Shown one piece after another: positions 3,352-18,939 of a stretch of DNA of 25,412 nt. The stretch spans positions 1 through 25,412 of the IMG/VR virus record IMGVR_UViG_3300044237_002656; one strand, 5' to 3'. The stretch comes from a virus. Each line of letters begins with the position of its first letter. Within the stretch, counting starts at the first letter, position 1. The position numbers were made by a program, and so were the translations under genes. The notes below the pieces were generated by a model, which did not search any database, had not been told where the DNA came from, and worked only from the letters and a program-made list of their open reading frames with translations.

Positions 3352-4046
3352 TGCCACTCACAGCTAAAGGAAAAAAATTAAAAGCAAAATTCAGAGACCA
3401 ATATGGTAAGAAAAAAGGTGATTCTGTTTTTTATGCTATGGAAAATTCTGGTAAGTTAAAAAAAGTTATAAAAGCTAGAGGTGGTAAGGATGCAGCAGAT
3501 TTTGGTAAAAGCACATCAAATAATGATTCAGATAATAATAGAGAACAATATGGAGCTAAAGGCCAATATACTGGAAGAGGAAACAAAGGTGTTGGAGGCA
3601 ATGAAACAAAAAAAGTAACAGTAAGAACAGGACCTAGATATTTTGATCCAAGACCATTAGGATTACTTACTCCACTATCTTATCAAGTAGGTGTGACTGC
3701 ATTAAACTTAGGTAAAAAAAAGACTTATGATAGAAAAAATTTAAAAGAACAAAGAAAAGTAGATGTTCTTGGTGGAGAGATGTTAACAACAGGACCTACT
3801 GGGCCTACTGGTCCAACTGACAAAGGAGGAAATAAAGGTATTACTCCAACACAACCTATTCAACCAATTGCTACAACAAAAAAAATAGATCAAAGTTTAG
3901 TGAGTCCCAAAGATAATTTTTTTAATTTTGTAGCTTATAAAGTTGGTGGATTATCAGGTGGAGTTAGTTATGGACCACCACCCAAAAGAGGACCTAATTC
4001 TCAAGTACCCCCAGTAAAAATGAAAAAAGGAGGATATAAAAAATAA
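3351..4046 (+). CDS. Basic protein with a short collagen-like GPT run, unknown
   Basis: A 231-residue Lys/Gly-rich protein coupled to both neighbours by TAATG overlaps. The N-terminus (MPLTAKGKKLKAKFRDQYG then KKKGDSVFYAMENSGKLK) is a recognisable start found on many marine-phage proteins of unknown function. The middle carries an LGGEML motif followed by three GPT triplets (about residues 148-156), a very short collagen-like stretch, then Pro/Thr-rich sequence. The C-terminus is MKKGGYKK. Low complexity and charge suggest a flexible, perhaps virion-internal or surface protein. Function is unknown. The next gene is the two-TM holin-like protein. Confidence 0.75.
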   Translation: MPLTAKGKKLKAKFRDQYGKKKGDSVFYAMENSGKLKKVIKARGGKDAADFGKSTSNNDSDNNREQYGAKGQYTGRGNKGVGGNETKKVTVRTGPRYFDPRPLGLLTPLSYQVGVTALNLGKKKTYDRKNLKEQRKVDVLGGEMLTTGPTGPTGPTDKGGNKGITPTQPIQPIATTKKIDQSLVSPKDNFFNFVAYKVGGLSGGVSYGPPPKRGPNSQVPPVKMKKGGYKK

Positions 4047-4432
4047 TGTGGTTATCAGCTATTAAACTTGCAATATCTGCAGGATCAAAAATTTATGCTA
4101 ACAAGCAAAAGACTAAAATGGCAATGTCTGATGCACAATTAATGCATGCAGAACGTATGGCCAAAGGCGAAGAAGCTTACCAAGGTAAACTTCTTGAGGC
4201 TAGACAATCAGACTGGAAAGACGAGGCAGTTTTGATAATTCTTAGTTTGCCCGTGTTGGTGCTCGCATATGCAGTCATCTCAGATGACCCAACAGCGATG
4301 GACAAAGTAAAATTATTCTTCGAGATGTTTTCGCAGCTCCCGTCATGGTTTACAAATCTCTGGATTTTAGTCGTGGCATCGATTTACGGAATCAAAGGCA
4401 CACAAATCTTCAGGAACGGAGGGAAGAAATGA
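4046..4432 (+). CDS. Two-TM membrane protein, holin-like
   Basis: A 128-residue protein. Residues 1-58 are polar and partly amphipathic. They are followed by two hydrophobic segments, about 61-79 (AVLIILSLPVLVLAYAVIS) and about 101-118 (WFTNLWILVVASIYGIKG), and a short basic tail NGGKK. The two-TM hairpin with a basic C-terminus is the form of class II holins, which permeabilise the inner membrane at lysis, but the long N-terminal region and the distance from the M15 endolysin at 15588 make that only a candidate. A structural membrane protein is the alternative. It overlaps the previous gene (TAATG) and the next by ATGA at 4429-4432. A GGAGGG at 4418-4423 inside its 3' end serves the next gene. 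Confidence 0.6.
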   Translation: MWLSAIKLAISAGSKIYANKQKTKMAMSDAQLMHAERMAKGEEAYQGKLLEARQSDWKDEAVLIILSLPVLVLAYAVISDDPTAMDKVKLFFEMFSQLPSWFTNLWILVVASIYGIKGTQIFRNGGKK

Positions 4433-4606: not shown

Positions 4607-4813
4607 ATGAGTTTTAGATTAGCTTTACTGAAAGCGTTAGAGGATAAATACGATGCTGAAATTTCATCTGCCGATGCAACAATAAAAATTTATTTAGAAA
4701 AACCTGTTGGTATTGGAGAACATCCACAACACATAGAAGAGTTAGATAAATTATTTCAAAAGATTGTAGACGCAGAAGAAAAAAAGAAAGCACTCATACC
4801 CTTTAAATTTTAA
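4607..4813 (+). CDS. Small acidic/basic protein, unknown
   Basis: A 68-residue protein with no Shine-Dalgarno before ATG 4607 (the gap is TTATATAAAAACTCAC). It is predicted mostly helical: an N-terminal LALLKALEDKYDAEISSADATI segment, a middle with EHPQHIEELDKLFQ, and a helix VDAEEKKKAL. It ends in IPFKF. Nothing marks a signal peptide or membrane segment. It is the last gene before the AT-rich cassette. Codon use and gene size fit the other small phage proteins here. Function unknown. Confidence 0.65.
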   Translation: MSFRLALLKALEDKYDAEISSADATIKIYLEKPVGIGEHPQHIEELDKLFQKIVDAEEKKKALIPFKF

Positions 4814-4816
4814 ATA

Positions 4817-6424
4817 ATGAACGTGCTAGCTTTTCATCTTGGACACGATGGATCTATAACTGTCGTTTCTGAGAATGAGGTAATCGCTCATCATCAATTA
4901 GATAGATACAATAAATTTAAACATCAATCTTTATATACTTTTGAAATATTACAAAAAGTAAAAGATTTTAAAATTAAGTTTGATAAAATTATTTTAACCT
5001 CTATGGGACCTTTATGGGGTGCAGCAACTATTATATTTTTAAAAAGATTTTTTAATGTAAACATAAATCAAATAATAATATTAGGACAAACTCAACATCA
5101 CATATTTCATGCATATTGTGCAAAATTTTTTTATCAGGTTGATAAAAATTTTATAATATTTGTCGCTGACGGTGAAGGTGCAACACAATTTTTTAATCAC
5201 CCTTCTAGACATATAAATAATTTAAAGATTGTTGAAAATGAAACAATATATAACGAAAATTTAGAAAATATTTACAATAAATTTTATACAGAAAGACCTC
5301 TTAATTTTATAGACAAAAAAACGAAAATAATAAATTCAATATCTTTAGGAAAAGGTTATGAACAACTTACTTATGAATTAGGTTTGAAACAAGCAGAAGA
5401 GGGAAAAGCTATGGCACTGTCTTCTTATGGCACAGCACGTGAAAGTATAATTAATAATCTAATTCACAGAGATAATTGGAATAAAAATATTATTGATAAT
5501 AAGGTAGAATTTTATGACAATACAAATAATTTTAATAAATTTTTGTTAAATCACGACATTAATCATTTATCAAAAAATTCACCTAGTCTGGACTTTGTAA
5601 GTTCTTTTCAAAAAGCTTTTGAAATTTTATTTTTAAAAACTCTAAATAAAATTAATTACGAAAATAAAACAATACTTTTGAGTGGCGGTTGTGCACAAAA
5701 TGTTTTAAATAATACTAATCTAAAAAATACTTTAGATAATAAAATTTTACCTGATCCTTTTAATGGTGATTTTGGAATATCATTAGGTGCAGCTTTGTGG
5801 GCTACAAATAATAATGTAAAACCTTTAAAACATATTTGTTCGGGTTTTAAACCTGAACAAGATTTGAATGCTTTCTTACCCTATAAAAATAAAAATATAA
5901 GCATAGAAGAAGTTGCAAACATTTTAATTAAAGAACCAGTAGCAATAATTTCAGGCAAAAGTGAACAAGGCCAAAGAGGTTTAGGTTTTAGATCATTGTT
6001 AGGAAATCCTTTAGATGAATCTATATTAAATAAAATAAATGAAATAAAAAAAAGAGAATGGTACAGACCGTTTGCTTGCACTGTGTTAGAAGAATATGCA
6101 TCAAAATTATTCGAAATAGAAACAAATGAAACATCACCTTACATGATGTTTGTTTATAAATCTAAAGACAAAAGATTAAAAAATGTATGTTCGGTAGATG
6201 GTTTTAGTAGAATACAAACTTTAAATAAATCTTTCCATCCAAAATATTATGATCTCATTAATTCGTTTAAAAAACTTACGGGTTTACCCGCAGTATTAAA
6301 TACTTCTTTAAATTTACCTGGACATGTTTTATGCGAGGAATATAATGATGTTAAATACATGATGAAAAATTCTGAATTAAAATATTGTTATATAGCAGAT
6401 AAAAATAAATTAATTTATAAGTAA
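4817..6424 (+). CDS. O-carbamoyltransferase, NodU/TobZ/CmcH family
   Basis: A 535-residue enzyme of the family that moves a carbamoyl group from carbamoyl phosphate, through carbamoyl-AMP, onto a hydroxyl, often of a sugar. Seen: an N-terminal ASKHA-like start (AFHLGHDGSITVV); HHIFHAY with the metal-binding HxxxH pair (H94, H98); VADGEG with D118; an LSGGCAQNVL turn and DPFNGDFGISLGAAL later in the N-terminal domain; and a C-terminal YrdC-like adenylate half with GKSEQGQRGLGFRSLLGNP, EWYRPFACTVLEE and LTGLPAVLNTSLNLPG. Both halves look intact. It starts 3 bases after the previous stop with no Shine-Dalgarno, is strikingly AT-rich, and couples by TAATG to the oxygenase gene. The acceptor is unknown; a sugar, glycan or modified nucleotide are all possible. 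Confidence 0.9.
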   Translation: MNVLAFHLGHDGSITVVSENEVIAHHQLDRYNKFKHQSLYTFEILQKVKDFKIKFDKIILTSMGPLWGAATIIFLKRFFNVNINQIIILGQTQHHIFHAYCAKFFYQVDKNFIIFVADGEGATQFFNHPSRHINNLKIVENETIYNENLENIYNKFYTERPLNFIDKKTKIINSISLGKGYEQLTYELGLKQAEEGKAMALSSYGTARESIINNLIHRDNWNKNIIDNKVEFYDNTNNFNKFLLNHDINHLSKNSPSLDFVSSFQKAFEILFLKTLNKINYENKTILLSGGCAQNVLNNTNLKNTLDNKILPDPFNGDFGISLGAALWATNNNVKPLKHICSGFKPEQDLNAFLPYKNKNISIEEVANILIKEPVAIISGKSEQGQRGLGFRSLLGNPLDESILNKINEIKKREWYRPFACTVLEEYASKLFEIETNETSPYMMFVYKSKDKRLKNVCSVDGFSRIQTLNKSFHPKYYDLINSFKKLTGLPAVLNTSLNLPGHVLCEEYNDVKYMMKNSELKYCYIADKNKLIYK

Positions 6425-7050
6425 TGGAATACCAAGCCCTACCCTTATTTTCAAAATTATTTTATTTAAAAAAATTAAACATAGATACAAAAAGAATTAT
6501 ATCAAGAATACAAGAACCATTTATTGAGTCAGGCTATCAAAAAGAAAATAATGTAGAAAATATTGCAGCAGCTTCAAAATCTAAAACTGTATTAAATAAG
6601 CCAGAGTATAAAGATTTAAGAGATTTAGTGTTAAATGAATTTTATTTTTTTAGTAAAGAAGTTTTACAATATAGTAATAAATTTGATATAACTACATCTT
6701 GGTTTACAAGAACAGAAAAAGGCCAAAGTTCAAATTATCATAATCATCATAATTCTATGTATAGCGGTATATTATATTTACAAACCGATGATAATTCTGG
6801 AAACATAAGTTTTGAAGATTATAGTAATCATAAAAGATTTTTGTGTGATCCAATTAAATGGAACATTTATAACTCTTCAGAATATAAATTTAAACCTGTT
6901 GATGGTCTTCTAATTTTTTTCCCTAGTGAAATATACCATAAAATATTAAAAAATAATTCTGATATTATTAGAGTTTCTTTGGCTTTTAATTTTTTACCTG
7001 TGGGTAAAGTTGGTCATGGTGATAGTGAAATGAATATTAAATTAATTTAA
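6424..7050 (+). CDS. 2OG-Fe(II) oxygenase-like protein
   Basis: A 208-residue protein resembling the putative 2-oxoglutarate/iron oxygenases of the 2OG-FeII_Oxy_5 type. Such enzymes couple 2OG and oxygen to hydroxylation. Seen: YHNHHNSMYSGILYLQ (H106, H108) in the position of the first iron ligand; GNISFEDY; then LLIFFPSEIYHKI with H172 as the distal ligand and IIRVSLAFNF with R183 as the likely 2OG-binding residue. The second iron ligand is not a plain HxD/E and needs a model. Its start overlaps the carbamoyltransferase stop (TAATG). A 38-base gap with no Shine-Dalgarno separates it from the aminotransferase-fold gene. It is AT-rich like its neighbours. It might act on a product of the sugar cassette or on a protein or nucleotide; the substrate is not visible. 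Confidence 0.72.
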   Translation: MEYQALPLFSKLFYLKKLNIDTKRIISRIQEPFIESGYQKENNVENIAAASKSKTVLNKPEYKDLRDLVLNEFYFFSKEVLQYSNKFDITTSWFTRTEKGQSSNYHNHHNSMYSGILYLQTDDNSGNISFEDYSNHKRFLCDPIKWNIYNSSEYKFKPVDGLLIFFPSEIYHKILKNNSDIIRVSLAFNFLPVGKVGHGDSEMNIKLI

Positions 7051-7088
7051 ATAGTTTACAAATCTTTAGTTTAATTGTAAAAGTTTTT

Positions 7089-8309
7089 ATGCCTGAAAAA
7101 ATATATTATGCTAACGCTGTCTATGATCAAAAAGAAATACAGGCTGTAAATGAAGTTTTAAAAAATCATTTAACATTAATGGATGGTCCATTAGTAAAAA
7201 AATTTGAAAGTAAAGTTGCTAACATCTTTGGAAAAAAATATGGAGTTATGGTTAACTCCGGTTCTTCAGCTAATTTAATTGCTTTAGCATCTTTAGACTT
7301 ACCAAAAGGTGGTGAAGTTATTACACCTGCTTTGACGTTTGCAACAACAGTTGCACCAATATATCAATGCGGACTTATCCCTCATTTTGTTGATGTTGAA
7401 AATTGTGAGTTTATAACTAACCCAGAATATATTACAAAAGCCGTTAACAAAAAAACAGTTGCAATTATGTTACCTAATTTACTTGGAAATGTATGTGATT
7501 GGAAAAGTATTTATAGAATTGCAAAAAAACATAAATTAAAAATTATAGAAGATTGTGCTGATACAATAGGTTATAAATATTGGGATAGTAAAGATGGAAC
7601 AACGGGTAAATTTAATGATTTAGTCACAACAAGCTTTTATGCATCTCATATTATTACAGCTGCAGGTCAAGGCGGAATGGTATGCACTAATGATAAAAAA
7701 TTACTTGATAAATTAAAATTACTTAGAGGATGGGGAAGATCATCAGCACTTTTTAATGAGTCAGAGGAAATAGAAAAAAGGTTTAATACTAAAGTTGATG
7801 GTATTGACTATGATTCTAAATTTATATTTACAGATATAGGATATAATTTTTTACCGTCAGAAATATCTGCTGCATTTGGTTTAGAGCAATTAAAAAAATT
7901 ATCAAATTATAAAAAAATAAGACAAAGAAATTTTAGATTATTAAACGATTTTTTTATGCCTTATTCACATATTAGATGGGTAGGAAGAGTAGGTAATGGC
8001 CACGCTGATACACCTTGGTTAGCTTATCCTCTAGTTTTAGATTCTAAAGCACCGTTTACAAGAAAACAAATGCAAATATATTTTGAAAAAAATGGTATTC
8101 AAGTAAGAACTATTTTTACAGGAAATATTACAAGACAACCTATTATGAAAAATAAAAGGTGGAAAGGTAATAATCAATTTTTTGTTGCAGATGAAGTTAT
8201 GAAAAATGGTATGTTATTAGGAGCACATCAAGGTATGTCTCTAAAACAAGTAGATCGTATTAAAGAAGTTTTCACTTCACTCGCAAGAGAATATAAAAAT
8301 CATGGTTAA
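7089..8309 (+). CDS. DegT/RfbH-type PLP enzyme, predicted sugar 3-dehydratase
   Basis: A 406-residue fold-type I PLP enzyme of the DegT/DnrJ/EryC1 family. Blocks seen: VNSGSSANLIAL (phosphate site), GGEVITPALTFATTVAPI, FVDVENCEF, KIIEDCADTIG with D155 facing the PLP nitrogen, TSFYASHIITAAGQGGMVCT, and GNITRQPIM. In sugar aminotransferases the FYxxK lysine forms the Schiff base; here it is H187, as in RfbH/DdhC and ColD, which remove the C3 hydroxyl of 4-keto-6-deoxy sugars. RfbH enzymes carry a cysteine cluster after the WGR motif (CxC...C). Here residues 213-232 read RGWGRSSALFNESEEIEKRF with no Cys, so the Fe-S site is absent. It has no Shine-Dalgarno and overlaps the glycosyltransferase by 8 bases. 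Sugar 3-dehydratase is a prediction; a PLP enzyme with a different reaction is the alternative. Confidence 0.82.
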   Translation: MPEKIYYANAVYDQKEIQAVNEVLKNHLTLMDGPLVKKFESKVANIFGKKYGVMVNSGSSANLIALASLDLPKGGEVITPALTFATTVAPIYQCGLIPHFVDVENCEFITNPEYITKAVNKKTVAIMLPNLLGNVCDWKSIYRIAKKHKLKIIEDCADTIGYKYWDSKDGTTGKFNDLVTTSFYASHIITAAGQGGMVCTNDKKLLDKLKLLRGWGRSSALFNESEEIEKRFNTKVDGIDYDSKFIFTDIGYNFLPSEISAAFGLEQLKKLSNYKKIRQRNFRLLNDFFMPYSHIRWVGRVGNGHADTPWLAYPLVLDSKAPFTRKQMQIYFEKNGIQVRTIFTGNITRQPIMKNKRWKGNNQFFVADEVMKNGMLLGAHQGMSLKQVDRIKEVFTSLAREYKNHG

Positions 8310-8898
8310 AATTTGGACACATGTTGCTTGGGATAATACCGGAAAGAAAGATTTAGGTAAGGCATATAATGCTTGTTTGAATGAACATGCAGATGAAGAT
8401 TGGGTAGCATTTTTAGATCATGATGCAATCTTTACAACTAACGACTGGTACTTACAACTTCAACAAATAATTCAAGATAATCCTAACTGTAAAGGCATAT
8501 GTTCTAGAGTAAATAGAATGAATACACTTGAGCAAATGGTAGTGGGTATAGACCCCTATAATTTTGATTATGGTTATCATAGAAATGTAGGAAAATTTTT
8601 AGCAACAAAGTATAAAAATCAATCTAAAATTATAAAAAAGAAAGGACACATGTCGGGAGTATTTTTTGCTGTTAATGTTGGAGTGATGAAAAAATTAGGG
8701 GGATGTGTTGAAACAGGTCGTCAATTAGGCACAGATAATTTAACTCAAGCTAAAATTATTGATGCAGGATATGAATTTAGAATTGCAAATGGTATATATG
8801 TTTTTCATTGGTACAGAGCAGAAAGCCCATATGAACATGCAAAACACTCTTTGCAACAATTAGAAATTGCTCATTATAATTCAATAAGGTTAACATAA
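8302..8898 (+). CDS. Short GT-A glycosyltransferase-like protein
   Basis: A 198-residue protein of GT2/GT-A type, which transfers a sugar from a nucleotide donor. Seen: KDLGKAYNACLNEHADEDWVAFLDHDAIF, with D39-H40-D41 as the metal/nucleotide DxD; GHMSGVFFAVNVGVMKKLGG, the usual acceptor-side block; and a later TDNLTQAKIIDAGYEF segment. It is shorter than most GT2 enzymes: the N-terminal strand that normally precedes the DLGxAYN helix is minimal, so the donor domain may be trimmed. It overlaps the PLP enzyme by 8 bases and starts without a Shine-Dalgarno, so it is likely translationally coupled. It probably transfers a sugar made or modified by the cassette, or acts on an existing glycan. The acceptor is not visible. 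Confidence 0.72.
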   Translation: MVKIWTHVAWDNTGKKDLGKAYNACLNEHADEDWVAFLDHDAIFTTNDWYLQLQQIIQDNPNCKGICSRVNRMNTLEQMVVGIDPYNFDYGYHRNVGKFLATKYKNQSKIIKKKGHMSGVFFAVNVGVMKKLGGCVETGRQLGTDNLTQAKIIDAGYEFRIANGIYVFHWYRAESPYEHAKHSLQQLEIAHYNSIRLT

Positions 8899-9101
8899 TG
8901 TTGGACCCAACCACAGTAGATCAAATTAGAAATACAATTAATAAGCAAATAAGAGATATTAAAGATCATATTTGTTATGGGGTTGAAACGGAATCTCAGT
9001 TGATGTATGCTAGAGGCAGACTCAGCGGATTAGAAACGCTGCTTCAGGATATTAAAAACCTGCATAAGGAGGATAACGATGGTACAATTGATAAAACCTA
9101 A
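8898..9101 (+). CDS. Small helical protein, unknown
   Basis: A 67-residue protein, TAATG-coupled to the glycosyltransferase. It is predicted helical: MLDPTTVDQIRNTINKQIRD, then IKDHICYGVETESQLMYARG and RLSGLETLLQDIKNLHKED. It overlaps the GroES-like gene by 23 bases, whose Shine-Dalgarno AAGGAGG lies inside its 3' end. In marine phages small proteins with this start recur between head genes (from memory, no name). No membrane segment or metal motif is visible. Likely a phage housekeeping or head-associated protein rather than part of the AT-rich cassette. Confidence 0.68.
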   Translation: MLDPTTVDQIRNTINKQIRDIKDHICYGVETESQLMYARGRLSGLETLLQDIKNLHKEDNDGTIDKT

Positions 9102-9522
9102 GCTTACAGATTTTGGTAATGACCAAAAAAAAGAAGCAGAGGTTAAATCACAAATTCCAACAGACCCTAAAGGCATCAAAGAATATCTTGAAATCATACC
9201 AAACCCAGTAGGATACCGAATGTTAGTTAGACCATGGTCTGGTAAGGCTAAGACTAAAGGCGGTGTTATTTTAGCAGATGAAACTCAAGACAAAATTCAA
9301 ATGACAACAGTTGTTGGATTAGTGGTCAAAATGGGTGATCTCTGCTATCAAGACGAAAAAAAATTTCCAAACGGGCCTTGGTGTAAGGAAGGTGAATTTG
9401 TTGTTTATGGCAGATACACTGGATCAAGATTTCAAACTAAATACGGTGAACACCGTATACTCAATGATGACGAAATAATAGGAACTATAGGAAAGCCAGA
9501 AGATATTCTCCATTTATTTTAA
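9079..9522 (+). CDS. GroES-like co-chaperonin (phage Cpn10)
   Basis: A 147-residue Cpn10-fold protein that would cap a GroEL ring so that large or awkward capsid proteins can fold. Residues 1-40 are an unusual charged extension. Then come NPVGYRMLVRPWSGKAKTKGG, the flexible mobile loop with GGVILADET (about 55-72, matching the GG-IVL contact of GroES), VVGLVVKMG, CYQDEKKFPNGPWCKEGEFVVYG and EHRILNDDEIIGTIG. It is longer than GroES (97) mainly from the N-terminal extension and an inserted roof segment (about 88-125). A strong AAGGAGG (9066-9072) precedes ATG 9079. It sits just before the scaffold-like gene, the setting of other phage co-chaperonins that help the capsid protein fold. It would use the host GroEL; no GroEL is seen in the window. 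Confidence 0.85.
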   Translation: MVQLIKPKLTDFGNDQKKEAEVKSQIPTDPKGIKEYLEIIPNPVGYRMLVRPWSGKAKTKGGVILADETQDKIQMTTVVGLVVKMGDLCYQDEKKFPNGPWCKEGEFVVYGRYTGSRFQTKYGEHRILNDDEIIGTIGKPEDILHLF

Positions 9523-15587: not shown

Positions 15588-16064
15588 ATGAAGCTTACAC
15601 GGAACTTCAGCTTGGCAGAGCTTATTAAATCAGACACTGCAATACGTAGGGGTATTGATAACAACCCCAACGCAGATCAAATAGAAAAATTAAAATTACT
15701 TTGTGAAAATATTTTACAACCGGTGCGAGACCATTTTGGCAGAGTAACGGTGACCAGTTGCTATCGTAGCCCTGAGTTATGTGTAGCTATCGGCAGCAGT
15801 TTAACTTCACAGCATACTAAGGCAGAGGCTGTCGATTTCGAATGTCTGGGCACAGATAATGCTGAAGTCTTTGACTGGATCAAGGCAAACCTAGATTGGG
15901 ACCAAATGATACTTGAGTTTTACACTCCTGGTGAACCAAACAGTGGGTGGGTCCATTGCAGCTACGTATCTGAAAATCCAAGAAAACAATTGTTGAGAGC
16001 TTTTAGAGAAGATGGTAAGGTTAAATATAAACCAATAATTGGTAACGCAAGAGATTTAATATAA
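15588..16064 (+). CDS. M15 peptidase, probable endolysin
   Basis: A 158-residue protein of the Peptidase_M15_3 type (zinc D-Ala-D-Ala carboxypeptidase/endolysin). Such enzymes cut peptidoglycan cross-links or stem peptides. Seen: RVTVTSCYRSPELCVAIG, then the zinc site SQHTKAEAVDFE (H76, D83) and WVHCSYVS (H123), the canonical SxHxxGxAxD...HxS pattern with T in place of the usual glycine at the third position. A TAGGAGATAT site precedes ATG 15588. Size is typical for a single-domain phage endolysin with no signal peptide, which implies release by a holin. Follows the TM coiled-coil protein and the small protein. Export is likely by the 128-aa TM protein or another holin. Confidence 0.88.
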   Translation: MKLTRNFSLAELIKSDTAIRRGIDNNPNADQIEKLKLLCENILQPVRDHFGRVTVTSCYRSPELCVAIGSSLTSQHTKAEAVDFECLGTDNAEVFDWIKANLDWDQMILEFYTPGEPNSGWVHCSYVSENPRKQLLRAFREDGKVKYKPIIGNARDLI

Positions 16065-16083
16065 TATATTTAATTTTATTACT

Positions 16084-17568
16084 ATGAAAATATTGATTGT
16101 AGGAGGTGGAAGTGCCGGTTGGATGACTGCTGCTACCCTAGAATCACAATTTCCAAATCATGAAATATCTTTAATAGAATCAAAAAATATAGCAACAGTC
16201 GGTGTAGGAGAAAGCACTCTTGGACAAATTTCAGATTGGATGCGTTTGCTTAAAATTGAAGATAATGATTTTATTAAACATGTAGAAGGTAGTTATAAAT
16301 TAAGTATAAAATTTACAGATTTTTATAAAAAAGGTGAAGCTTTTCATTATCCCTTTGGTCTTCCTTCAATAACAGATGCTAAAGCAGGGACTAATGATTG
16401 GTGGTTTAAAAAAATATTATATCCAGAAACTCCATATTCAGATTATGCTAATTGCACATATCCACTTCAAATGGCTTTTGTAAACCAAAATAAATTTGAT
16501 ATAAACCAAGTTATAAGAGCATATCATTTTGATGCTACTAAGTTTGGTCTTTGGTTAAAAAATAATTATTGTAAAAAGATAAAACATATTGTTGATGATG
16601 TTGTTTCTATTGAACAAGATGAAAATGGAATTAAATCTTTAAATAATAAATACAAAGCAGATTTATATATTGATTGCACTGGTTTTAAATCTTTATTATT
16701 AGACAAGACTATAAAAGAACCCTTTGAATCTTACAGTGATATGCTACCTAATGATTCTGCTTGGGCTACAAAAATTCAATATAAAAATAAAGAAAAAGAA
16801 TTGGTGCCTTACACAAATTGCACAGCAATAGAAAATGGTTGGGTTTGGAATATTCCTTTGTGGACACGAATAGGAACTGGATATGTTTATTCAAGTAAGT
16901 TTGTTGATGATGATACGGCTTTAAAACAATTTAAAAAACATCTAGGACAAGAAAATTTAGAATTTAAAAAAATAAAAATGCGTGTAGGTATTCACAATAG
17001 ACTTTGGGTAAAAAACGTAGTTGCAATAGGACTATCTGCTGGATTTATTGAACCATTGGAAAGTAATGGATTATTTTCTGTTCATGAGTTTTTAATTAAT
17101 TTAGTTAAAAATTTACAAAGAGATAAAATATCACAATGGGATAAAGATAATTTTAATTTTCAATGTAAACACATGTTTAGATGTTTTGCTGAATTTGTTG
17201 CTTTGCACTATGCATTATCTCATAGAGATGACACTGAATATTGGAAACATTGTTTAAATAAAAATTGGGATAAAAATTTAATAGATTTAGGTACAACAAA
17301 TATTAAAGGTTTTTTAGATGCTGTTTACAGAAAAACTTATGATTATAAATATGATGATTTTTCAGGTCTACATTCTATAGCAGCAGGGATGCATTGGGCT
17401 CCGACAAGTAAAGAAACTTTAATAAAAAATGGAGGATTTAAAGAAGAAGATTTAAAAAATGTTTTTGATCCTTATGTAAAAAAATTAAATAATAGAGTAA
17501 AATTATGTGAAGAATCTATAAAAAATGTACCAAGTTTATTTGAGGTTTTAAGCAACATACATAAGTAA
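16084..17568 (+). CDS. Flavin-dependent tryptophan-halogenase-family enzyme
   Basis: A 494-residue flavin-dependent halogenase homologue. These use FADH2, oxygen and halide to make HOX that reacts through a lysine. Seen: the FAD-binding GGGSAGWMTA near the N-terminus; SYKLSIKF with K72 in the place of PrnA K79; GWVWNIP (W253, W255), the WxWxIP signature; and FIEPLESNGLF, which fits the FxxPxxSxG motif with E326 and S327 in the place of PrnA E346/S347. Length is close to the 500-540 of bacterial tryptophan halogenases. The start has no Shine-Dalgarno and base composition is lower in GC than the virion genes, unlike the endolysin just upstream. No flavin reductase is seen in the window, so FADH2 must come from the host. 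Substrate and halide are not visible from sequence; phage halogenases of this class are known. Confidence 0.88.
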   Translation: MKILIVGGGSAGWMTAATLESQFPNHEISLIESKNIATVGVGESTLGQISDWMRLLKIEDNDFIKHVEGSYKLSIKFTDFYKKGEAFHYPFGLPSITDAKAGTNDWWFKKILYPETPYSDYANCTYPLQMAFVNQNKFDINQVIRAYHFDATKFGLWLKNNYCKKIKHIVDDVVSIEQDENGIKSLNNKYKADLYIDCTGFKSLLLDKTIKEPFESYSDMLPNDSAWATKIQYKNKEKELVPYTNCTAIENGWVWNIPLWTRIGTGYVYSSKFVDDDTALKQFKKHLGQENLEFKKIKMRVGIHNRLWVKNVVAIGLSAGFIEPLESNGLFSVHEFLINLVKNLQRDKISQWDKDNFNFQCKHMFRCFAEFVALHYALSHRDDTEYWKHCLNKNWDKNLIDLGTTNIKGFLDAVYRKTYDYKYDDFSGLHSIAAGMHWAPTSKETLIKNGGFKEEDLKNVFDPYVKKLNNRVKLCEESIKNVPSLFEVLSNIHK

Positions 17569-17775: not shown

Positions 17776-18171
17776 ATGACAAAATTATGTTCTAGAGGTA
17801 AAGCTGCAGCAAAGCGTAAGTTTAAGGTATATCCCAGTGCATACGCTAACGCATACGCTAGTAAAATTTGTGCAGGTAAAATTAAAGACCCATCAGGTTT
17901 AAAAAGAAAAGATTTTAAAGGTCCTAAACCAGCTGGTAAAGTTTCTGGAGGAGAGGCTAAAATTAAAAAAGTTGCTGGTGCTTTACATAAAGCTTCAAGA
18001 CTTCATAAAGCACAAGCTAAATCTTTAGATTCAATTGTAAAAGCTTCTGACGGAAAATTTGCACAAAATTTACAACCATATGACGGTAGCTATGTAAAAG
18101 GTAATTTGGCAGGTCACGAGGTTTCAAATAAAAGTCTTTCTAATTATTATAAAGGAATGATTGATGGGTAA
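17776..18171 (+). CDS. Small basic protein with YPSAYAN motif, unknown
   Basis: A 131-residue basic protein preceded by AAAGGAT (17760-17766). The start MTKLCSRGKAAAKRKFKVYP then SAYANAYASKICAGK is a motif I recall from many phage and algal-virus small proteins, with no named function. The middle is Lys/Gly/Ala-rich and helical (KIKKVAGALHKASRLHKAQA), and the C-terminus is SLSNYYKGMIDG, which matches the tails of two neighbouring proteins. Its end overlaps the next gene. Packaged or capsid-interior role is inferred from composition and from the shared tail. Confidence 0.7.
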   Translation: MTKLCSRGKAAAKRKFKVYPSAYANAYASKICAGKIKDPSGLKRKDFKGPKPAGKVSGGEAKIKKVAGALHKASRLHKAQAKSLDSIVKASDGKFAQNLQPYDGSYVKGNLAGHEVSNKSLSNYYKGMIDG

Positions 18172-18667
18172 GAAAAAAGGAATTGATATCACTGGTGCAC
18201 TTAGTGCATTTGATAACGAATACGTTACTGAACCAAAAGCAGAATTAGGTGTAAAAAAAGGTGACAAAAAACTTGATGTAAGTGTATCAAAACCTTTTAG
18301 TAAAGTATCTAAAGAAAATCTTAATAGCACAATAGGAGCTACTTTTACTAAAGAGGGTAAAGATTCCTCTCTATCTTTAACTGGTTCTAAAACTGGTAAA
18401 AATAAAGAAGTTATTTTTTCATTTTCAAAAAGTTTTGACAAAGGTAATGAAGTTAAAAAAGGTAGAATGTTTACTGCTGCAGAAGTTAGAGCCTTAGATG
18501 AAGCTAAATCAGCAAAAAATTATAAAAAGAAAGATAGAATTAAATCTAGTGGTGATAAAGAAAGAATTCAATTAATGGGTACCAACTTAAAAAAATATAC
18601 TAAAGGCGGAATGTGCCGAGGAGCAGGAGCAGCCATAAAAGGCACGAGTTTTAAAGGTATATTCTAA
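18164..18667 (+). CDS. Basic virion-associated protein, unknown
   Basis: A 167-residue protein starting at ATG 18164 (an in-frame TTG at 18161 is less likely), overlapping the previous gene by 8 bases. It has MGKKKGIDITGALSAFDNEY, a beta-like repeat region (VSVSKPFSKVSKENLNSTIG, then FTKEGKDSSLSLTGSKTG, then KEVIFSFSKSFDKGNEVKKG), and a C-terminus ALDEAKSAKNYKKKDRI followed by KYTKGGMCRGAGAAIKGTSF. Alternating hydrophobic/basic strands suggest a small beta sheet. It couples by TAATG to the next gene. No family was recognised. Confidence 0.65.
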   Translation: MGKKKGIDITGALSAFDNEYVTEPKAELGVKKGDKKLDVSVSKPFSKVSKENLNSTIGATFTKEGKDSSLSLTGSKTGKNKEVIFSFSKSFDKGNEVKKGRMFTAAEVRALDEAKSAKNYKKKDRIKSSGDKERIQLMGTNLKKYTKGGMCRGAGAAIKGTSFKGIF

Positions 18668-18939
18668 TGGGACTAAAAAAATGGTTCAACGAAAAATGGG
18701 TAGACATTGGGGCACCGAAGAAGAATGGAAAATTTCAACCCTGTGGAAGGAAATCAGTAAGTGGATCAAAAAGAAAGTACCCAAAATCCGTCCCACTTGC
18801 AAAAGCCACACGAATGACAAAGTCAGAAAGGGCCTCTGCTGTCAGCAGAAAAAGAAGTAAGGCTCAAGGAGTCGGTGGTAAACCAACTAATGTCAGCACC
18901 TTTACCAAGAAGTATTATGGTGGTATGATAGAAATTTAA
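18667..18939 (+). CDS. Small basic protein, unknown
   Basis: A 90-residue protein of recognisable start: MGLKKWFNEKWVDIGAPKKN, then GKFQPCGRKSVSGSKRKYPK, VPLAKATRMTKSERASAVS and RKRSKAQGVGGKPTN. The WVDIxxPKxxGxxxxCGR pattern recurs in small proteins of marine phages (possibly DUF5872; not verified). It ends TFTKKYYGGMIEI, a tail that resembles those of the 131-aa and 132-aa neighbours. High Lys/Arg/Ser content suggests nucleic acid or capsid contact. It overlaps the previous gene by TAATG; the next gene has its own AAGGAGAA site 9 bases later. Confidence 0.65.
   Translation: MGLKKWFNEKWVDIGAPKKNGKFQPCGRKSVSGSKRKYPKSVPLAKATRMTKSERASAVSRKRSKAQGVGGKPTNVSTFTKKYYGGMIEI

Follow-up and report, generated by a model that had tools for sequence, protein, structure and literature searches.

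We analysed a virus record of 25,412 nucleotides (IMG/VR IMGVR_UViG_3300044237_002656, positions 1 to 25,412; hereafter the window), which covers under half of a genome of roughly 60 kb, and focused on a run of four genes at positions 4817-8898. These genes, named CARB, OXY, DEHY and GT, encode a predicted O-carbamoyltransferase, a 2-oxoglutarate (2OG)-Fe(II) oxygenase, a predicted nucleotide-sugar 3-dehydratase and a short glycosyltransferase. The reading that we favour, with a confidence a little above even, is that the late structural operon has a variable cargo slot, which this run fills; in it, DEHY and GT form a core that would make and transfer a 3-deoxy sugar, and CARB and OXY form a second module. 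The phage probably decorates its own particle or the surface of its host with an unusual sugar. SAR11 bacteria and their phages dominate the surface ocean, and phage recognition and competition there are poorly known.

The four-gene run and its cargo slot

The portal protein of the window is 87.7% identical to that of Pelagibacter phage HTVC023P and the gene order matches this phage from the portal (gp31) through the tail genes, which assigns the window to an HTVC023P-type pelagiphage on sequence grounds. The genes discussed below are the following.

CARB, 4817..6424, + strand: 535 amino acids (aa), Nol/TobZ-type O-carbamoyltransferase with both domains; predicted add-on module
OXY, 6424..7050, + strand: 208 aa, 2OG-Fe(II) oxygenase (2OG-FeII_Oxy_5); predicted add-on module
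DEHY, 7089..8309, + strand: 406 aa, predicted nucleotide-sugar 3-dehydratase of the pyridoxal phosphate/pyridoxamine phosphate (PLP/PMP) fold; catalytic His kept, no iron-sulfur (Fe-S) cysteines; SAR11-type
GT, 8302..8898, + strand: 198 aa, short GT-A/GT2-like glycosyltransferase; fixed partner of DEHY
g08, 4607..4813, + strand: 68 aa, phrog_1811, function unknown; left border of the cargo slot, kept left of the slot in most relatives
g13, 8898..9101, + strand: 67 aa, function unknown; right border of the cargo slot
GroES-like co-chaperonin, 9079..9522, + strand: PF00166 (4e-9), phrog_3188; downstream of the slot
HALO, 16084..17568, + strand: flavin-dependent (tryptophan) halogenase, Pfam Trp_halogenase (3e-107), phrog_2928; second cargo slot

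A preliminary description of this DNA, made from its letters alone, had named the four enzyme families; the open reading frames (ORFs) were found intact exactly at the coordinates it gave, and Pfam matches far beyond chance bore out all four families. CARB and OXY share a TAATG, as do GT and g13, DEHY and GT overlap by 8 nt, and the sole gap within the run (38 nt) lies between OXY and DEHY. The same run was present at 99.94-99.97% identity in three other contigs (L003, which stops within DEHY, L082 and L083), and another contig (L002) matched it at 99.8% across its overlap. These matches in further contigs rule out an assembly chimera. Purifying selection acts on DEHY and GT (ratio of nonsynonymous to synonymous substitution rates, dN/dS, of 0.09-0.24 against relatives) and on CARB (0.23 against a 65% ortholog, with dS about 1). 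The GC content of CARB (25%), OXY (24%), DEHY (29%) and GT (31%) is low, as expected for acquired cargo: the whole window has 34% and its structural genes mostly 33-41%.

The run had been placed between a holin-like and a co-chaperonin gene in an otherwise virion-only operon, and this needs correction on both counts. Its immediate neighbours are g08 and g13, the GroES-like gene starting at 9079; the “holin-like” gene is probably that at 4046-4432 (phrog_2524, function unknown), whose holin role is putative. The operon also carries the tryptophan-halogenase gene.

We describe the interval between the equivalents of g08 and g13 as slot 1, and compared it across all relatives fetched. This survey indicates that the slot is occupied in most relatives examined, mostly by predicted decorating enzymes. 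The commonest occupant is a protein of about 195 aa of the Methyltransf_24 family (35 loci). Further contents include GT alone, DEHY with GT, halogenase with GT and DEHY (L100), an oxygenase with this methyltransferase (L029), a PAPS-reductase-like protein with it (L049), and a sulfotransferase-like protein, under the Pfam cut-off, with a methyltransferase-GT fusion (L026). The latter is a natural fusion of an S-adenosylmethionine (SAM)-methyltransferase domain and the slot GT, encoded at 7206-8351 beside the sulfotransferase-like gene. Slot 1 is empty in seven cases (L028, L030, L037, L048, L050, L079 and HTVC023P); in HTVC023P, the counterparts of the two small border genes have nothing between them. 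The view that such enzymes are unusual in a phage head operon thus holds only in part, as decorating enzymes are what this slot usually contains among these phages.

Cargo was also found at two other places. Around g25-g28 lies a second slot, which is occupied by the halogenase in the window and by a 65% CARB ortholog in L149 (12658-14265), the slot 1 of which contains only GT. A third variable stretch, past the tail fibre, carries relatives of the oxygenase, CARB and the halogenase (L089, L150, L151). HALO has the WxWxIP motif (WVWNIP), and its 66% homolog adjoins GT-DEHY in slot 1 of L100 while the window copy lies in slot 2, so that the halogenase moves between slots. Small basic proteins like g28-g30 (17776-18939, after HALO) are located upstream of slot 1 in L084, L094 and L095, a position in a more distant phage group that shows module shuffling. 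The gene at 15588-16064 is the positional counterpart of HTVC023P gp49 “peptidase M15” and probably an endolysin; cargo genes flank it in L149 and L085. The gene at 14282-14956 matches phrog_3704 “ferredoxin” but has no Pfam match, and its annotation as a ferredoxin probably goes back to an error that was propagated.

The DEHY-GT pair, its SAR11 relatives and the CARB-OXY module

DEHY and GT are adjacent in ten of ten relatives where both could be read (L084, L085, L087, L093-L098 and L100), some of which are near-duplicates. The linkage holds across 73-86% identity in about ten relatives, with the order swapped once, in L100, and DEHY without GT was not seen among the relatives surveyed, save where the contig ends. 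This pattern points to a conserved two-gene module forming the core of the slot content.

DEHY matched the DegT_DnrJ_EryC1 Pfam family (7.7e-79), and its best PDB matches were E1 and ColD (phmmer, 170-195 bits). The aminotransferase Lys is replaced by His (SFYASH in DEHY, SFYPAH in E1, SFYSNH in ColD), and this replacement is present in every phage and SAR11 member examined. The Fe-S cysteines of E1 (CYCAPGCDNTC) align with SALFNESEEIE in DEHY, and are absent from seven of seven pelagiphage homologs and all SAR11 homologs aligned. The Fe-S motif separates ColD-type enzymes, which use hydrolysis with PMP renewed by glutamate, from E1-type enzymes, which use an Fe-S center and a reductase (PMC8987622). 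Since the His is kept and the Fe-S cysteines are absent, DEHY is predicted from its residues to belong to the ColD-type mechanistic class. It appears to be an ortholog of neither RfbH nor ColD: it scored 303.8 bits with the NCBIfam RfbH equivalog (PRK15407), under the cut-off of 423, and in trees it falls among homologs from SAR11 and Patescibacteria and away from ColD. Of the initial label “RfbH/ColD-like”, the RfbH half falls with the missing cysteines; the ColD-type residues agree with the other half, yet the closest relatives stand with dTDP-sugar genes in SAR11. Beyond SAR11, this Fe-S-free 3-dehydratase family was also observed across Patescibacteria and some archaeal genomes (L109-L135), its tested members scoring under the NCBIfam RfbH cut-off.

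A genome scan returned DEHY homologs of 42-51% in SAR11, Patescibacteria and a few archaeal genomes. Among 197 Pelagibacteraceae genomes, 29 carry a homolog at E <= 1e-60, and in about 22 of these it shares about 57-63% identity with DEHY; the nearest relatives of DEHY (57-62%) are SAR11 genes on the chromosome. In the phylogenetic tree, the phage DEHY proteins form one clade (support 1.0) within a phage and SAR11 group (0.97, 18 taxa). Ten SAR11 loci were read: rmlB, rmlA, the DEHY homolog and rmlC occur together in four (L160, L161, L162, L164), and rmlC or other rml genes lie near the homolog in three more (L157, L163, L165). Of the 197 genomes, 107 have an RmlB that scores above cut-off and 7 an RfbF-type CDP-glucose cytidylyltransferase. 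The prevalence of RmlB and the rml operon context favour dTDP over CDP, and the simplest reading is that the phage DEHY draws on host dTDP-4-keto-6-deoxyhexose. DEHY was apparently acquired from the deoxy-sugar pathway of a SAR11 host. CDP-glucose was considered as the donor from L111, where a cytidylyltransferase and a CDP-glucose 4,6-dehydratase, both above cut-off, stand beside the DEHY homolog; it is disfavoured by the same genome counts and by the location of the close SAR11 homologs in rml operons. The SAR11 rml/3-dehydratase islands also contain unassigned ORFs resembling short-chain dehydrogenases/reductases (SDR), of 284 aa before the 3-dehydratase in L160, L161 and L162, and of 235-239 aa in L163, L164 and L165 (RmlD-like by a weak match in L164). 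These could be the missing 4-keto reductase.

GT matched Glycos_transf_2 (1.5e-5, 25.4 bits against a gathering score of 23.3), and its DxD-like motif, DHDA, is invariant. A PDB sequence search with the GT profile gave only a chance match. The fold matches of its predicted model (mean predicted local distance difference test score, pLDDT, 65.9; predicted template modelling score, pTM, 0.66) in the PDB were mostly GT-A enzymes and sugar nucleotidyltransferases, with TM scores of about 0.4 and none at E <= 0.001, weakly supporting a GT-A fold.

CARB matched Carbam_trans_C (3.4e-42), Carbam_trans_N (1.3e-18) and phrog_1601, and its QHHIFHAY (HxxxH) and DGEG (DGxG) motifs align with TobZ of the PDB (6e-26). 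It scored 122.9 bits with the NodU equivalog, under the cut-off of 1000, and is thus not NodU itself. OXY matched 2OG-FeII_Oxy_5 (1.7e-19, 70.5 bits against a gathering score of 27), its metal and 2OG residues (HxH...H...R: HNH, distal H, R) align with PDB 3bvc, and its TIGR02466 score of 61.3 is just under the cut-off of 62.5. In slot 1, CARB and OXY were found only in the near-identical population of the window. An OXY relative directly adjoins a CARB relative in Pelagibacter phage HTVC008M and in L151, with a halogenase between them in L089; at these loci the OXY relatives reach just about 30% identity and oxygenases of this kind are frequent in the phages concerned, so that the association across relatives is suggestive only. 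Relatives of CARB and OXY occur without DEHY, and L085 holds distant relatives of both in a different slot from DEHY-GT. From this distribution, CARB-OXY appears to be a separate add-on module inserted in this population. Two gene models deserve a remark. A CARB homolog (25-40%) in L152 (2547-3969) is split into two overlapping ORFs and is possibly broken or frameshifted. A candidate CARB-oxygenase fusion in cyanophage S-SCSM2R, suggested by its “2OG-Fe(II) oxygenase” label, was rejected as a label error, the ORF being only of CARB length.

Proposed pathway and competing explanations

We propose that RmlA and RmlB of the host make dTDP-4-keto-6-deoxyglucose, the most likely NDP-4-keto-6-deoxyhexose substrate of DEHY. 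DEHY would take off the 3-hydroxyl to give a 3-deoxy derivative, towards a 3,6-dideoxy sugar, which an RmlC-like epimerase and an SDR reductase of the host may complete. GT would then move the sugar to a late-made acceptor, either a virion protein or glycan or a host surface polysaccharide; the location in the late structural operon suggests that the acceptor is probably present late, on the virion or the cell surface. CARB and OXY probably decorate further, by O-carbamoylation and hydroxylation of the sugar, its acceptor or another substrate. The sugar tailoring that had been anticipated is thus supported at least for DEHY plus GT.

Several observations weigh against this scheme. The window has neither a 4-keto reductase nor a gene for sugar-nucleotide synthesis, so the path would depend on the host. 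The branch that would tie phage DEHY straight to the 60% SAR11 clade has weak support (0.264), and outside the close SAR11 group homologs also stand beside CDP-glucose genes, so that dTDP is the preferred and not a certain nucleotide. The donor is not readable from the GT sequence, the GT model is of only moderate quality by its pLDDT, and the occurrence of GT without DEHY (L099; 50-53% subtype) means that GT can use other donors. The phage GT also had no detectable similarity to the GT beside the SAR11 3-dehydratase in L126, which had been considered as a relative.

The preliminary description had joined all four genes in one coupled pathway of deoxygenation, hydroxylation, carbamoylation and transfer of a single carbamoylated deoxy sugar. 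The tight, mostly overlapping gene order fits this proposal, and O-carbamoyltransferases such as TobZ carbamoylate sugar hydroxyls. CARB and GT are also both present in another HTVC023P-type genome (L149), though in different slots. We nevertheless hold it to be rather unlikely, as the four-gene run occurs only in near-identical contigs, ten relatives have DEHY-GT with no adjacent CARB or OXY, and the lower GC of CARB and OXY than of DEHY and GT is as expected for separate arrivals. The independent occurrence in relatives that had been named as evidence against a single pathway was indeed found for CARB and OXY, and DEHY and GT remain together; on the slot survey we reject a single pathway conserved as a set of four genes. 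The opposite possibility, that the slot merely tolerates insertions and each enzyme acts on its own substrate with no common pathway, accords with the many different enzymes found there and with the movement of CARB and halogenase homologs between slots. We consider it improbable, as the link between DEHY and GT survives the order swap and the divergence described above and would be hard to explain without a functional connection.

If DEHY had an aminotransferase role or used a different keto sugar, the result would be an amino or other sugar instead of a 3,6-dideoxyhexose. DEHY belongs to the DegT superfamily, the PseC and LegC aminotransferase models match it, and the 3-dehydratase SpnQ can transaminate in vitro (PMC8987622). 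The change from Lys to His in all phage and SAR11 members examined is the mark of 3-dehydratases, and together with E1 and ColD as best PDB matches it makes such a role quite improbable. Modification of phage DNA bases, which had been listed among the possible targets, is the least credible of these explanations. DNA hypermodification genes do exist in some HTVC023P-type clades, and glycosyltransferases can act on DNA. However, these genes lie near PolA, outside the structural operon (PMC9599517), among more than 100 SAR11 genomes just a single one is reported to encode restriction-modification (PMC7029224), the close DEHY homologs are in operons of the surface-sugar type, and the window yielded no gene for base modification. 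The virion or host surface, the other proposed target, is probably the right one.

The favoured reading, a slot with a DEHY-GT core, offers a concrete chain: a gene from a host rml operon, its phage copy that always comes with the same glycosyltransferase, and the sugar predicted to result. Should this sugar be on virions, the phage would be one of few tailed phages to bring a deoxy-sugar step of their own to the decoration of the coat; should it be on cells, the phage would be remodelling the surface of its host. The decorating enzymes in the slot of most relatives suggest strong, shifting selection on surface chemistry. As a tentative and rather doubtful extension, the slot might be reserved for exchangeable chemistry of surfaces (methyl, sulfo, halogen, carbamoyl, hydroxyl and glycosyl) that varies the surface of the virion or infected cell. 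Here, a two-gene tap on the SAR11 dTDP-sugar pathway would produce a carbamoylated 3,6-dideoxyhexose coat of a kind not so far known in SAR11 or in SAR11 phages.

Comparison with known systems

Phages with sugar-tailoring genes are already known, as are marine phages with Nol-like carbamoyltransferases and 2OG oxygenases, and cyanophages with full nucleotide-sugar operons. The slot with its enzyme repertoire, the fixed DEHY-GT pair and the tie to the SAR11 rml operon are apparently new as far as the open-access literature shows; this literature yielded nothing relevant on a pelagiphage carbamoyltransferase or on dideoxy sugars of SAR11 phages. For the HTVC023P-type pelagiphages, to which the window belongs, the auxiliary genes already reported include three glycosyltransferases and eight kinds of 2OG-Fe(II) oxygenase (Wittmers et al. 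2022, PMC9599517). The main text of that paper is silent on any aminotransferase, methyltransferase, halogenase or carbamoyl gene, and the available part of it gives no description of a cargo slot in the head operon. In a mycobacteriophage, the accessible part of another report suggests capsid glycosylation by phage enzymes (PMC11256854).

CARB shares the two-domain layout and the HxxxH and DGxG motifs with TobZ/Nol-type enzymes; phrog_1601 “Nol-like” proteins occur in cyanophages, and the carbamoyltransferase proteins of P-SSM2 and HTVC008M are about 28% identical to CARB. HALO belongs to the same broad class as VirX1, a viral flavin-dependent halogenase from cyanophage Syn10 (PMC8407142).

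ColD (a GDP-4-keto-6-deoxymannose 3-dehydratase) and E1/RfbH share the fold family and the His-for-Lys change with DEHY, which lacks the Fe-S cysteines like ColD. Both are distant from DEHY in sequence, and the close relatives of DEHY lie in dTDP-sugar (rml) and not GDP-mannose operons. Among the Kyanoviridae, S-H68, S-B05 and S-CAM7 carry a 3-dehydratase-like gene in the neighbourhood of a glycosyltransferase and further sugar genes; S-CAM7 has a tail fibre gene close by as well. These are long operons, with their own dTDP-glucose 4,6-dehydratase in S-H68 and S-B05, whereas the pelagiphage window has DEHY and GT only; the S-H68 enzyme also retains the E1/RfbH cysteine region that DEHY lacks. 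A further parallel in organization is the host recognition cluster of pelagimyophages and cyanomyophages, which is likewise variable, located within structural genes and equipped with glycosyltransferases, and was proposed to alter host O-chains and block coinfection (PMC7029224). That cluster averages about 45 kb and includes tail fibres, whereas the pelagiphage slot spans 0-4 kb upstream of the co-chaperonin in podophages and carries another enzyme set.

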